Shown here: piece after piece, positions 1-5,460 of the stretch | Layout: every line of letters begins with the position of its first letter | Numbering within the stretch: the stretch's first letter is position 1 | Assembly (NCBI GenBank): GCA_000980495.1 | Contig: LARN01000032.1 | Location: 1 to 23,177, forward strand | Length of the DNA: 23,177 nucleotides | Direction of reading: 5' to 3' | Origin: Acinetobacter sp. N54.MGS-139 | GTDB lineage: Bacteria; Pseudomonadota; Gammaproteobacteria; Burkholderiales; Burkholderiaceae_F | Position numbers and translations under genes: made by a program | The notes under the pieces: model-generated | Database searches by the model: none | What the model was told of the DNA's origin: nothing | The model's input: only the letters and a program-made list of their open reading frames with translations

Positions 1-133
1 AGTTGCCGGTAAAAAGATTAAATACTTTGAAGCGTTAGGTGTTGGAGTTCCGGGAGCCGGGCCCGAGACGCCGGAAGATGTTCAGGAAGAACCAGAAGTT
101 GAACCGTTATTAGGTACGGATATTGAAATTTAA
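1..133 (+). CDS. C-terminal end of an unidentified protein (partial)
   Basis: An open frame enters from the left edge (codons from position 2) and stops with TAA at 131-133, giving the last 43 residues of a protein. The visible tail begins with a basic stretch (VAGKKIKYFEALG), passes a Gly/Pro-rich linker and ends in a strongly acidic segment finishing in DIEI. I do not recognise the family. A short acidic C-terminus like this can be a protein-interaction tail, but that is only an inference. The IS element begins about 48 bases after its stop codon, so the gene itself is not interrupted. Confidence 0.6.
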   Translation, partial: VAGKKIKYFEALGVGVPGAGPETPEDVQEEPEVEPLLGTDIEI

Positions 134-140
134 CGAGGAT

Positions 141-159
141 GCCGGAGCCGAACTCCGGC
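141..159. terminator. GC-rich hairpin after the partial gene
   Basis: GCCGGAG (141-147) and CTCCGGC (153-159) form a perfect 7-bp stem with a 5-base loop, 8 bases after the stop codon of the upstream gene. No run of T follows on either strand. It may be a 3' end stabiliser or the remains of a terminator whose T tract was separated when the IS inserted about 20 bases further on. Confidence 0.4.
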
Positions 160-183
160 TAGATCACTGAAAAACGCAATCTC

Positions 184-193
184 TGGAACCCCT
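184..193. repeat. Subterminal inverted repeat of the IS, transposase 3' side
   Basis: TGGAACCCCT here is the exact reverse complement of AGGGGTTCCA at 1700-1709. Three bases (CTC) lie between it and the putative AT core at 179-180, the short spacing known for one end of IS1111 elements. Confidence 0.75.
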
Positions 194-437
194 GCAGTTG
201 TCAAGCACTTTAGGATAAAGTTTTCCTTTAGTCTTGCGAAGCAAGACCTGTTTGCATAATTTTTTGATTGTCTAGGTATCTTTTTCGAGGTTAAATGCGT
301 CTGCTGTTGCATACAGAAGAGGCCAATCTACCAATCTCTCCAGGCTGTTTCAAGAACCTCAATTGATTCTATTTGCCTACCATGAACTTCAAGATCAGTC
401 CGCTCGTGCCCCTTAAAATCTGATAGCTGCAACGCTA

Positions 438-449
438 ATTGCGTTTTTC
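438..449 (-). other. Putative right target guide of the bridge RNA
   Basis: On the minus strand this reads GAAAAACGCAAT. It is perfectly complementary over 12 bases to the flanking host strand ATTGCGTTTTTC (minus strand, 180 to 169), which begins exactly at the putative core dinucleotide. Its last bases could also close a small hairpin with GTTGC (429-433). A chance 12-base match at the insertion boundary is unlikely. Confidence 0.6.
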
Positions 450-515
450 GGGCTGTGGAGCGGGCCTTTCGGCTTTCTCATGCTTAGTTGTAGACGATTG
501 TGCTCGAACTGTAAG

Positions 516-523
516 TTAAATCT
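516..523 (-). other. Putative left target guide of the bridge RNA
   Basis: Immediately after the transposase stop codon the minus strand reads AGATTTAA, identical to the host flank AGATTTAA (minus strand, 1722 to 1715) that abuts the other end of the element. It lies about 67 bases 5' of the putative right guide, in the order and sense expected for a target-binding loop. Eight bases in AT-rich sequence could match by chance, so this is weaker than the right guide. Confidence 0.4.
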
Positions 524-1636
524 TTAGCTCCCTTTGGACAATGAGCATTTCGCGACCCCCGCTATTTTTGGGTTATATGGTTTGCTACTGATAAGAATAG
601 CTCTAACGATCCGTAAAAGCTTTGCGGCAACGGCGCATACTAGTTTTCCCCACGGCATTTTTTCTTTTTGCTTCTTCAAAATCCACTTCGTTAACTGTTT
701 GGATTTTAATTTTCCACAAGTGGCCAAGCGGATCACACATCCGGCCCCTTGCACCATTAAAGACCTCATTGTCCTGTCTCCACGATGGGTGATTTTTCCT
801 TTTTTCTCATTGTGCCCTGTGGCAATGCTTCTTGGTACCAAGCCATAATAGGCAGGAAAATCTTTGGGATTTTTAAATCTCTTGATGTCTCCAATCGTTG
901 CACGAAGTCTACAACTGCAGATTGTTCCCAGTCCCGGAATCGTTTGAATTAGCTGGCAAACTTTATCGTTCTTAGCCAACACCTCAAGAGTTTTGGTGAT
1001 TTTATTCAAGACCTTTTGAGTCGTTTGTGCGTGTGTGACCATGTCAACGAGACTTTCCCTCAGTTCCTCCGGAAAAGCTGCGTGATTTTCAATCAGATCT
1101 TTCAATTGAGCTTTCCCGCTGATTCCTTTCGATATATTCAATCCCCAGGCTTGGCAAATCCCTTTTAAAGACACAATGGTCTGTCTATATTGTTTGATAT
1201 ATTGTTCCCGCAGCGTTGTTAAGCTCGCGTACTTTTGTTGCTCTATATCTTTGGCTTTGATTGTCCTCAGCTGTTTATCTTGGGCTAGAAAAGCCAGAGC
1301 TTGAGCATCATTTAAATCAGTTTTTTGGCCTGAATAATGATTTTCAACGTAGTTCTGTACATTCTTGCCGCCGATAACCAGACAACGATGCCCCCAAGCC
1401 TCTAACTTTTGAACTAAATAATTCATTTCAGTGCACGGCTCCATGGCGAACGTCGTAGGACTAAGCGCCTGGGCACTTTTCTCGAGCTCAGAATAGTCAA
1501 GCCGGTCGATGCAGACCACTTCACCATCTGTTGTTAACAGAGCAGCACTGACACAATTCTTAGCTAAATCTATACCGATGGCTTCGTATTCGAGATCTGT
1601 ATCGATAGTTTTTGCGAGTATCCTTCTAACTGACAT
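524..1636 (-). CDS. IS110-family transposase (DEDD recombinase, IS1111 group)
   Basis: A 370-residue DNA recombinase that moves the surrounding element under guidance of its RNA. The N-terminal RuvC-like domain shows the four acidic residues of the family: D23 in GIDLAK, E66 in MEPC, and D107 and D110 in KTDLNDAQA. A helical linker covers about 120-225. The C-terminal Tnp_20 domain starts near IPGLG (233-237) and contains YYGLVPR (263-269) and ITHRGD (282-287). The length is normal and the frame is intact. One oddity: where relatives carry the catalytic serine motif (S-S/T-G or E-S-G after GLVPR), this protein reads I-A-T-G (271-274). The ATG start follows AGAGGTGA at a good distance, but both are inside a hairpin formed with the IS end (1631-1714). 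Confidence 0.93.
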   Translation of the reverse strand: MSVRRILAKTIDTDLEYEAIGIDLAKNCVSAALLTTDGEVVCIDRLDYSELEKSAQALSPTTFAMEPCTEMNYLVQKLEAWGHRCLVIGGKNVQNYVENHYSGQKTDLNDAQALAFLAQDKQLRTIKAKDIEQQKYASLTTLREQYIKQYRQTIVSLKGICQAWGLNISKGISGKAQLKDLIENHAAFPEELRESLVDMVTHAQTTQKVLNKITKTLEVLAKNDKVCQLIQTIPGLGTICSCRLRATIGDIKRFKNPKDFPAYYGLVPRSIATGHNEKKGKITHRGDRTMRSLMVQGAGCVIRLATCGKLKSKQLTKWILKKQKEKMPWGKLVCAVAAKLLRIVRAILISSKPYNPKIAGVAKCSLSKGS

Positions 1637-1714
1637 GGAATCACCTCTAATGAGAACTTTGTCACTTTCATTTTGCTCTCTCTATTTCGTTGGGAGCAAA
1701 GGGGTTCCATGTCA
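1631..1714 (-). promoter_or_regulatory. Hairpin covering the transposase start codon
   Basis: TGACATGGAA (1631-1640), which contains the transposase start codon, is the exact reverse complement of TTCCATGTCA (1705-1714) at the IS end. In the mRNA this gives a 10-bp stem over a 64-base loop. After a small internal loop the Shine-Dalgarno bases AGAGG could also pair with CCUUU. Transcripts entering from outside the element would carry both arms and hide the start site, as other IS elements do against read-through. A transcript starting inside the loop would lack the 5' arm and be translatable. Confidence 0.6.
1700..1709. repeat. Subterminal inverted repeat of the IS, transposase 5' side
   Basis: AGGGGTTCCA, the exact reverse complement of 184-193. 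It overlaps the 5' arm of the translation-blocking hairpin, so the same bases may serve transposition and translational control. Confidence 0.75.
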
Positions 1715-1760
1715 TTAAATCTCAGAGATAATTAGTTTGGAACCAAATTTCTCGGAAAAA

Positions 1761-1791
1761 CGAAAAAGCCTCAGATTCGAAAATCTGAGGC
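1761..1791 (-). terminator. Terminator of tRNA-Asp (first copy)
   Basis: GCCTCAGATT (1768-1777) and AATCTGAGGC (1782-1791) form a perfect 10-bp stem with a 4-base loop. On the minus strand it is followed by TTTTTC, making an intrinsic terminator 10 bases after the tRNA 3' end. It also shields the tRNA from the IS transposase downstream. Confidence 0.85.
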
Positions 1792-1800
1792 TTGGAATTT

Positions 1801-1877
1801 TGGCGGAGTGGACGGGACTCGAACCCGCGACCCCCGGCGTGACAGGCCGGTATTCTAACCAACTGAACTACCACTCC
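1801..1877 (-). tRNA. tRNA-Asp (GTC)
   Basis: The reverse complement folds as a 77-base tRNA with the CCA end encoded (1801-1803). The acceptor stem is GGAGTGG/CCACTCC, the D arm contains TTCAGTTGGTTAGAA, the anticodon loop is CTGTCAC in a CCGGC/GCCGG stem, giving anticodon GTC (Asp), and the T arm contains GGTTCGAGTCC. The mature sequence is identical to the copy at 5384-5460. Confidence 0.97.
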
Positions 1878-1917
1878 ATTCGTCTCTCCGTTCGCTCGCG
1901 CTGTCGGAGAAGTCGAA

Positions 1918-1945
1918 ATTCTACATAAATTTCGAAAAGGTGCAA
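1918..1945 (-). promoter_or_regulatory. Promoter of tRNA-Asp (first copy)
   Basis: The minus strand reads TTGCAC (-35, 1945-1940), 16 bases, then TAGAAT (-10, 1923-1918), about 40 bases before the tRNA 5' end. The same two boxes with the same spacing lie before the second tRNA-Asp, which supports the call. Confidence 0.8.
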
Positions 1946-2249
1946 CTCAGAATCAATTTCACTTGTAAAAGTTTATTGCCAGTTATGCATTCCTATCGAT
2001 TTAGTCCTTTGAAACAAGAGAGCAAAGACGAAAGAATGCTCAAAGAAAATTGTTGTAAAAGAGGTTCAGCGGTAAGTAAATAACCTTCCTTTTCGTTAGT
2101 GGTTTCACTTAGAGAAAAGGTCCTAAGGGAGAATTCTTAAAGGATAAAGCCTAGAATCAAGAGTGTTTCTAATTGTTAACTTAGGGTTAGAAACGCAATA
2201 AAAAGAAACTTCCAAAAGAAGTCACTAAAACAACCTCAGGGGAATTCTT
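1946..2249. other. Gene-free region upstream of the DASS transporter
   Basis: About 300 bases between the tRNA-Asp promoter and the transporter start, with no convincing gene. Its main feature is the inverted repeat at 2165-2194. A weak promoter-like pair, TTGTTA (2174-2179) and CAATAA (2197-2202), is spaced 17 bases apart. A Shine-Dalgarno-like AGGGGAA (2238-2244) precedes the transporter ATG. Confidence 0.45.
2165..2194 (+). promoter_or_regulatory. Inverted repeat, possible operator of the transporter gene
   Basis: GTTTCTAA (2165-2172) and TTAGAAAC (2187-2194) form a perfect 8-bp inverted repeat with a 14-base spacer, about 55 bases before the transporter start. The spacer holds a GTTAAC palindrome. 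The half-site spacing suits a dimeric regulator; which one is unknown. Confidence 0.4.
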
Positions 2250-3659
2250 ATGAGTAAAAGTCTAAGGAACTGGATCACAGTTCTGGCGATAGGCTTTGTG
2301 ATTTGGGTTTGCCCAACGCCGCAAGGTTTGACGCCTAATGCCTGGCACTTGTTTGCTGTCTTTGCTGCAACCATCGCCGGCTTCATTCTTCAGCCGATTT
2401 CAATGGGTGCGGTTGCATTTATCGCACTCACATTCTGCGCGATCACCGGTGTTTTAAAGACCGGTCAGGCTCTGATGGGTTTCGGCAACGGCACGATCTG
2501 GCTGATCGTCTGCGCATTCTTTCTTTCCCGCGCATTTATCAAAACTGGTTTCGGCCGTCGTATTGCCTTCCTTATTATTAAATACATCGGTCGTTCTTCG
2601 CTGACCCTTGGTTATTCCATCTCGTTGTCCGAACTGATCGTTTCTCCGGCTATGCCTTCTGCCACTGCTCGAGGAGGCGGCGTTTTCTACCCGATCGTTC
2701 AGTCTTTGGCGAATGCCTTCGGTTCTCAGCCCGGGCCCACAGCCGGCAAAATCGGTAAGTACCTCATGCAGGTCGGTTATCACACTGACGCAGTGACCTG
2801 CACAATGTTCCTGACATCTATGGCCGGCAACCCGCTGTGCGTCGGCTTGGCTGCTACCGCTGTCGGTGTCGAAATTACATGGATGAACTGGGCAGTTGCC
2901 GCTATCGTTCCGGGTTTGATCAGCTTGTTCCTGGTTCCGGTTCTGATGCTCAAACTTTCTCCTCCTGAAATCAGAGACATTCCCGATGCTCGCGACTTAG
3001 CTATCAACGAGCTCGAAAAGATGGGTCCGATGAGCCTTCAGGAAAAAGTCCTCGCATTCGTATTCGTCATGTGCTTGGCTCTGTGGGCTACAGGCTCTTG
3101 GACAAAACTCGGCGCAACACCGGTTGCCATGCTCGCTGTGGCAATCATGCTGATTGCAAAAGTTTTGGACTGGAAAGACATCCTCTCCGAAAAAGGTGCT
3201 TGGGACGCAATGTTCTGGATGGGCGGCTTGGTTGCTTTGGCTACTGCACTTGCTAAGTCCGGCTTCATTGCATGGATCGCCAAACTTATCGGTACAGCAG
3301 TTGCTGCCGCTGATATGGGTTGGGTTGCATCCTTCGTGCTTATTTCGCTTATTTATATCTATTCGCACTACTGCTTCGCTTCCGTAACAGCACGTATTTC
3401 AGCGATGTACGCAGCATTCGTAGCAGTTGCCGCCGCCTGCGGTGTCCCGGCCATGCTGGTTGCCATCACATTCGGCTGCTTCGCTAACCTGCCGATTTCA
3501 CTGACTCACTACGGCAACGGCTGCGGCCCGGTTTATTTCGGTGCCGGCTATGTTTCTCAAGGTGAATGGTGGCGCAACGGCTTCATCATCACAACAATTA
3601 ATGTAGTGATTTGGCTCACCATCGGTATGACCTGGTGGAAGTTCATCGGCTTGTACTAA
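2250..3659 (+). CDS. DASS-family dicarboxylate/anion symporter or antiporter
   Basis: A 469-residue inner-membrane transporter of the divalent anion:sodium symporter family, nearest in style to the CitT/TtdT/YbhI group, which exchanges or imports citrate, tartrate, succinate or 2-oxoglutarate. It has about a dozen hydrophobic segments. The first re-entrant hairpin carries SPAMPSATARGGG (132-144) and the second carries YSHYCFASVTAR (about 370-381), both characteristic of that group. In the first, the residue trio that is usually S-N-T reads S-A-T. The start is the ATG behind AGGGGAA. It is a single-gene unit, followed by a terminator at 3721. Its substrate cannot be read from sequence; a C4-dicarboxylate is the best guess for a gut organism of this type. 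Confidence 0.88.
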   Translation: MSKSLRNWITVLAIGFVIWVCPTPQGLTPNAWHLFAVFAATIAGFILQPISMGAVAFIALTFCAITGVLKTGQALMGFGNGTIWLIVCAFFLSRAFIKTGFGRRIAFLIIKYIGRSSLTLGYSISLSELIVSPAMPSATARGGGVFYPIVQSLANAFGSQPGPTAGKIGKYLMQVGYHTDAVTCTMFLTSMAGNPLCVGLAATAVGVEITWMNWAVAAIVPGLISLFLVPVLMLKLSPPEIRDIPDARDLAINELEKMGPMSLQEKVLAFVFVMCLALWATGSWTKLGATPVAMLAVAIMLIAKVLDWKDILSEKGAWDAMFWMGGLVALATALAKSGFIAWIAKLIGTAVAAADMGWVASFVLISLIYIYSHYCFASVTARISAMYAAFVAVAAACGVPAMLVAITFGCFANLPISLTHYGNGCGPVYFGAGYVSQGEWWRNGFIITTINVVIWLTIGMTWWKFIGLY

Positions 3660-5383: not shown

Positions 5384-5460
5384 TGGCGGAGTGGACGGGA
5401 CTCGAACCCGCGACCCCCGGCGTGACAGGCCGGTATTCTAACCAACTGAACTACCACTCC
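5384..5460 (-). tRNA. tRNA-Asp (GTC), second copy
   Basis: 77 bases including the encoded CCA, identical in mature sequence to the copy at 1801-1877: same acceptor stem, anticodon loop CTGTCAC and T arm. It is the lone product of its unit, with its own promoter at 5499-5526 and a terminator shared with trpB. Confidence 0.97.

Follow-up and report, generated by a model that had tools for sequence, protein, structure and literature searches.

The closest described systems are the seekRNA-encoding IS1111 elements ISEc11, ISKpn4 and ISPa11. According to PMC11187229, these elements carry their non-coding region (NCR) downstream of tnp and have sub-terminal inverted repeats, a promoter at the junction of their ends and no target duplication. 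Their RNA carries the complement of the target top strand 5′ of the match to the bottom strand, and the two target matches overlap. The sub-terminal repeats of the family are given there as usually 11–13 bp, perfect or near perfect, with terminal extensions of 7 bp on the left and 3 bp on the right, occasionally 6 and 3. Two further members of the family, IS4321 and IS5075, target the terminal inverted repeats of Tn21-family transposons (PMC11187229, PMC8269217), and sometimes a look-alike site elsewhere, in ureC (PMC8269217). In the IS110 group, the bridge RNA is described as lying mostly in the left end; that of IS621 carries its two guides on the facing sides of a target loop, with a donor loop after it (PMC11208160). 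RNA guidance of the IS1111 type and, for IS4321 and IS5075, insertion into the ends of mobile elements are thus already published.

The stretch of DNA analysed here (the window, 23,177 nucleotides) contains an IS1111-type insertion sequence (IS) whose 3′ NCR very probably encodes a bridge/seekRNA, with guides directed at AGATT/TTGCGTTTTTC in the end of an IS1634-family element. It shares with ISEc11, ISKpn4 and ISPa11 the position of the NCR, the sub-terminal inverted repeats, the order and overlap of the two target matches, a promoter (here a predicted one) at the end junction and the lack of a target duplication, and differs from them in its guides and target, in its transposase of 370 aa (330–350 aa in that set), in a strict repeat of 10 bp and in having an RNA that is predicted from sequence. 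As with IS4321 and IS5075, an IS1111-type element has inserted in the end of another mobile element and appears sometimes to use a look-alike site; the prey is here an IS of the IS1634 family, carried by a Parasutterella-like genome, where theirs is a Tn21-family transposon, and the IS4321 habit of entering the ends of other mobile elements would be extended to an IS1634 host. The target loop is like that of IS621, as is an apparent donor loop placed after it, whereas both the location of the RNA and the order of the guides differ from the IS110 group, in which the order is the reverse. The IS1634-end target looks newly described; the literature on IS1634 with IS1111, on Parasutterella insertion sequences and on seekRNA, bridge RNA and Sutterella yielded no title on such a target, most subscription papers being outside the scope of that search.

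The element and its relatives

The element occupies positions 180–1717 on the minus strand (1538 bp, TAATGACA...GAGA), and its ends are conserved in relatives. The boundary carries a one-base ambiguity, 179–1716 being equivalent, and was fixed via unoccupied sites. The transposase gene (524–1636, minus) encodes a protein of 370 aa with both domains expected of an IS1111 transposase, an N-terminal RuvC-like DEDD domain (DEDD_Tnp_IS110, PF01548, E 4.9e-15) and a C-terminal Transposase_20 domain (PF02371, E 3.9e-20). The protein scored above the cut-off of NF033542, which is the NCBIfam model of RNA-guided transposases of the IS110 family, and the GL-P----S/TG motif described in PMC11187229 is present in the translation as GLVPRSIATG. 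Its length falls outside the 330–350 aa of the IS1111 set in that paper, a range that represents the spread of the set, not a rule, and was not treated as defining.

The sub-terminal inverted repeats TGGAACCCCT (left, 1700–1709, minus; right, 184–193, plus) are perfect over 10 bp, or 11 bp with one outer mismatch, as in the IS1111 family; relatives in the genomes G052, G055 and G058 have a repeat of 12 bp. The left and right terminal extensions, TAATGACA (1710–1717, minus) and GAGA (180–183, minus), are conserved among relatives and measure 8 and 4 bp beyond the perfect repeat; to arrive at 7 and 3 bp, the mismatched outer position has to be included in the repeat. An unusual end geometry, with 12 bp instead of 10 between the repeats, was set aside, as that way of counting would restore 7 and 3. 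Close relatives share the ends TAATGA(C/T)A and GAGAT (GAGAA in L012), the sub-terminal repeats and a downstream NCR. In the window this NCR extends 330 nt from the transposase stop to the right repeat, a long downstream NCR as in other IS1111 elements. A search of window positions 1–2300 with the Rfam covariance models, at E values up to 5, gave no match inside it.

A TTGACA motif at 199–204 (minus) would, in a joined circle, sit 17 bp from a GATAAT made by the two ends, and the TTGACA-17-GATAAT so produced is what would be expected of a junction promoter. The same arrangement was predicted in five of the six elements tried, with TTGACG-17-GATAAT in the locus L001.

A transposase match was found in 25 of 67 genomes of the same family. 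The sole relative found in named genome contigs was L001, a decayed copy in Parasutterella muris that carries stops and whose best protein segment shows 87% identity; in the related genome G050, the neighbouring locus is 91% identical. No similar DNA turned up in the plasmid and phage collections at the limit applied. Within the close group, the NCRs can be aligned and contain two hypervariable segments inside a conserved frame. As the groups are inter-related and the eight G052 copies used have one common guide, counting was by group; one of these copies, L100, differs by a single NCR base outside the guide. The guide tests did not include L008, L029 and L099 (three of the 11 G052 copies, in which the right repeat was not found), the more distant elements among L013–L028, or any of L105–L128. 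L013 forms one portion of the L145 element, and L005 and L007 contribute a left flank only. A fragment resembling the left end (74% identical) was also seen in G050, on contig C11 (L084, about 1501–1620), with a different left flank and no matching transposase or right end reported alongside.

Guides and fold of the predicted RNA

The preliminary description had reported an IS1111-type element with segments resembling guides in the NCR that follows the transposase and, among these, a right target guide. Its letters were confirmed, with minus 449–438 and plus 169–180 both reading GAAAAACGCAAT, and this match of 12 bases abutting the right end was reached by none of 1000 dinucleotide-shuffled versions of the 330-nt NCR. 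We place the guide one base shorter, as GAAAAACGCAA (439–449, minus), complementary to the top strand of the right target TTGCGTTTTTC. In a position-blind scan of 158 alignment windows and nine guide groups, complementarity to the right flank peaked at minus 452–439 (z 6.26). Secondary signals for the same probe, at minus 306–293 (z 3.00) and 385–372 (z 2.87), count against this assignment; in its favour, the best windows for the opposite senses reached no more than z 2.32 and 2.43. When flanks were permuted among groups, an equal or better fit to the right guide, its blocks chosen by eye, arose once in 200,000 permutations.

Guide–target runs of at least seven, allowing G-U, were present in 20 of the 28 own pairs and in 17 of the 392 cross pairs. 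The own guide was the single best of the 15 guides in 18 rows and was not the single best in the other 10, and eight rows had own runs below seven (L001, L092, L093, L097, L098, L104, L143 and L152). In L001, the closest relative, the right guide mismatches its own flank, in a copy with a shortened target loop and stop codons. Two rows, from the G050 contigs C17 and C79, use the guide of the window by assumption, the G050 assembly having no guide of its own (no match to the covariance model). That model, built on the target domain, matched four of 399 genomes of the order sample and 11 of 67 genomes of the family. Seven loci (L143, L145, L146, L152, L153, L157 and L159) were held out from both the model alignment and the earlier guide test, the guide blocks and flanks of these loci being identified by eye. 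The right guide fits five of the seven, with runs of 11, 11, 10, 9 and 8 (G-U allowed), and has a run of 5 in L143 and L152; L157 shares its guide with L101, at a new site. A right target guide at minus 449–439 is supported, and with it, through the scan, the permutations and the held-out loci, this part of the preliminary description. The set of 15 different right guides with their target sites would form a natural series of related bridge/seekRNAs.

Two of the held-out loci, L145 and L143 (both G063), are related IS1111-type elements whose right end lies near a gene that looks, by eye, to be of the TnpB type; these may again be insertions next to a mobile element. In L145 the right guide fits the site, in L143 it does not.

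The left guide was re-assigned. The same scan placed the maximum of identity to the left flank at minus 429–408 (z 5.30–4.70), and four of 200,000 flank permutations among groups gave an equal or better fit, again with blocks chosen by eye. The segment is AGATTTT (415–421, minus), identical to the top strand of the left target AGATT followed by the opening TT of the right target, and it overlaps GAAAAACGCAA in this TT; overlapping target matches are described likewise for the ISEc11 seekRNA (PMC11187229). The guide is short, with just 2–3 bases matched in L012, L093–L095, L102 and L103. Among the held-out loci the left end is in view only in L145, where four bases match by eye. On the aligned flanks, the left guide is AGATTTT and lies 3′ of the right guide; the two DNA matches have the top-strand complement 5′ of the bottom-strand match, the IS1111 order as given in PMC11187229.

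The preliminary description had proposed the opposite arrangement, that of IS110/IS621, with a left guide AGATTTAA (516–523, minus) just past the transposase stop and 5′ of the right guide GAAAAACGCAAT, and an AT core giving a pre-insertion site AGATTTA-AT-TGCG (AGATTTAATTGCG). Both strings exist and abut the element ends, minus 523–516 and minus 1722–1715 each reading AGATTTAA; the covariation across relatives gives the reverse order, and a guide role for the left string was not borne out. The last three letters of AGATTTAA belong to the conserved left end TAATGACA of the element itself, so only AGATT is target. A match of at least eight abutting the left end was equalled in 29 of 1000 dinucleotide shuffles of the NCR, scan windows around 523–516 stayed below z 1.3 for all four probes (in an area that aligns poorly outside L001), and the string lies outside the folded target loop, the fold having covered minus 481–316 only. 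The homologous stretch of L001 still reads AGATTTAACTTAC, but its left flank is CTTAATTTTAATGACA, not AGATTTAATGACA. The 523–516 stretch therefore does not follow the flank, and L001 is a copy of the kind that the preliminary description had itself named as speaking against its reading. The AT core was likewise rejected, as AGATTTAATTGCG is absent from the seven unoccupied ends read in G050. We consider this arrangement highly improbable and judge AGATTTAA to be a chance match: a plausible short string abutting one end resembled a guide and was none.

The minimum-energy fold of minus 481–316 places GAAAAACGCAAU (449–438) and UCAGAUUUUAAG (423–412), which hold the two guides, opposite each other in a single 12+12 internal loop. 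The loop is closed by an inner stem GCCC/GGGC (450–453 and 408–411, minus) and an outer stem CCGCUC/GAGCGG (458–463 and 400–405, minus), both present in the fold and the alignment consensus and both covarying, and is capped by a hairpin UAGC...GCUA between the guides (424–437, minus) that is seen in the single-sequence fold only and is absent from the consensus. Both stems recur in the consensus, together with a third, short stem farther downstream. Over the 10 pairs of the target loop and four pairs farther downstream, 98.4% of cells were paired; double changes numbered 28, where shuffling gave a mean of 9.5. Slid versions of the stems lowered the pairing to 43% or less. Relatives folded singly do not always have the target-loop structure as their best fold. 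In L001 (4143–4297), the target loop is without the middle part between the guides, with almost no change elsewhere in the RNA. Guide positions in this IS1111 subgroup are readable by covariation instead of from a single match.

The energy of the window RNA is ordinary (z −1.20, with 21 of 200 shuffles folding at least as well), as would be expected if the matches were due to chance and the NCR had no guide function. The permutation, cross-pair and held-out results and the covarying stems argue against chance so strongly that we regard its probability as negligible.

Farther downstream, GTTCAT (382–387, minus) and AGAGAT (334–339, minus) resemble, by eye only, a pair of donor guides, one for each end of the element and in the same order. 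The candidate right donor guide GTTCAT, whose pairing with the left end is partial, is present in eight of the nine rows of alignment A1 (TTTCAT in L012). The candidate left donor guide AGAGAT is identical to the right end of the element and is present in eight of nine rows, L012 being one base off.

We infer that the RNA is made and bound, that it has donor guides and that the element passes through a circular intermediate. By analogy with the published systems (PMC11187229, PMC11208160), the RNA–transposase complex would pair with both target strands and insert the excised circle. On recognising AGATT/TTGCGTTTTTC, it would place the element at the slash, in a single orientation and with no net target duplication. 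The reading-frame phase across the insertion was compared at 18 loci, 11 of which have no long open frame on both sides. The phase was only as expected without duplication in L093, the expected one plus another in L092, L095 and L096, mixed in L097 and L100, and only a different one in L098; the comparison was not relied on.

The insertion site in IS1634-family ends

The right flank of the element (window 1–179), taken for host DNA in the preliminary description, is the end of an IS1634-family IS. The 3′ end of its transposase gene, cut by the window start, lies at 1–133 (plus), the inner part of the IS end, which forms the right target, at 158–179 (plus), and the outer 8 bp of the same end, the left target CTGAGATT, at 1718–1725 (minus). 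With its target sequence in such an end, the element preys on another IS. A second case was found in the IMG/VR record L004, where a stretch of 1725 bp, made up of the IS with 8 bp of flank on its left and 179 bp on its right, matches the window at 99.5% identity. The right flank of L004 contains an IS1634-family transposase that runs to near the junction; it is in two frames around an N, and when these were scanned apart the larger piece passed the NF033559 cut-off and the smaller failed. The left flanks of window and L004 have CTGAGATT in common and then diverge. At the level of sequence, these are two separate copies in an IS1634 end.

Seven unoccupied IS1634-type ends were readable, all in the one genome G050. 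Five are contig ends reading CTGATATTTTGCGTTTTTC, each cut 23–24 nt inside (L061, L069, L072, L074 and L080), and two belong to contig C84 (L179), where an IS 93–99% identical to that of L004 reads CTGAGGTTTTGCGTTTTTC at its right end and CTGAGATTTTGCGTTT at its left. The unoccupied relatives of the site read CTGAGATTTTGCG, CTGAGGTTTTGCG and CTGATATTTTGCG. The predicted empty site AGATTTTGCG occurs as an uninterrupted IS1634-family end, the left end of C84, which corresponds letter for letter to AGATT/TTGCG; the letters past GCGTTT differ from the right flank in the window. A scan of IMG/VR for the empty site gave 12 stretches, none of which then continues as IS1634 end sequence. The ends of the C84 element are imperfect (CTGAGATTTTGCGTTTCTAG versus CTGAGGTTTTGCGTTTTTCAG), and both keep the core read by the IS1111 guides.

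Contig ends of G050 also carry ends of the same element. On C32, its left end lies beside CTGATATT, with the right side out of view; C32 reads like an IS1634 end on the strength of those eight letters. Occupied IS1634 ends are accordingly those of the window and L004, and C32 on the left side only. On C17 and C79, the right end of the element is present and no IS1634 end is; both sites resemble the target of the right guide, with runs of 8 against the guide of the window, which is assumed for them.

We infer that IS1634 ends are a preferred rather than an occasional target. In its stronger form, the element would be a parasite that uses RNA guidance to exploit specifically the ends of one other IS, of the IS1634 family, in Parasutterella-like gut bacteria, with guides tuned to CTGAKRTTTTGCG in the ends read. 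We hold this to be slightly less than an even prospect, having lowered it a little from even because C32 shows one side only. If it is true, each insertion splits the IS1634 end after 8 bp and would immobilise that IS1634 copy. The right ends on C17 and C79 suggest instead that the guides are correctly identified and that any site like AGATTTTGCG is hit, IS1634 merely supplying many of them. The window and L004 lie in IS1634 ends and the left side of C32 is similar, which speaks against such unspecialised targeting, and we regard it as a credible but doubtful explanation. The 99.5% identity of the common 1725 bp raises a different question, whether the window and L004 share CTGAGATT through a single move of a composite IS1634::IS1111 unit as a block, not through two targeted insertions. 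The other variant, CTGATATT, beside the same left end on C32 argues against a block move, its right side being out of view, and the guide match is independent of the question; we think a block move unlikely, though by no means far-fetched. The one-sided view of C32 led us to raise both of these alternatives by the same small step.

Two tRNA-Asp (gtc) genes lie on the minus strand of the window, at 1801–1877 and 5384–5460, and the nested IS pair is just beside the first. In the prophage record L004, a tyrosine integrase gene (1423–2634) adjoins the nested IS pair.
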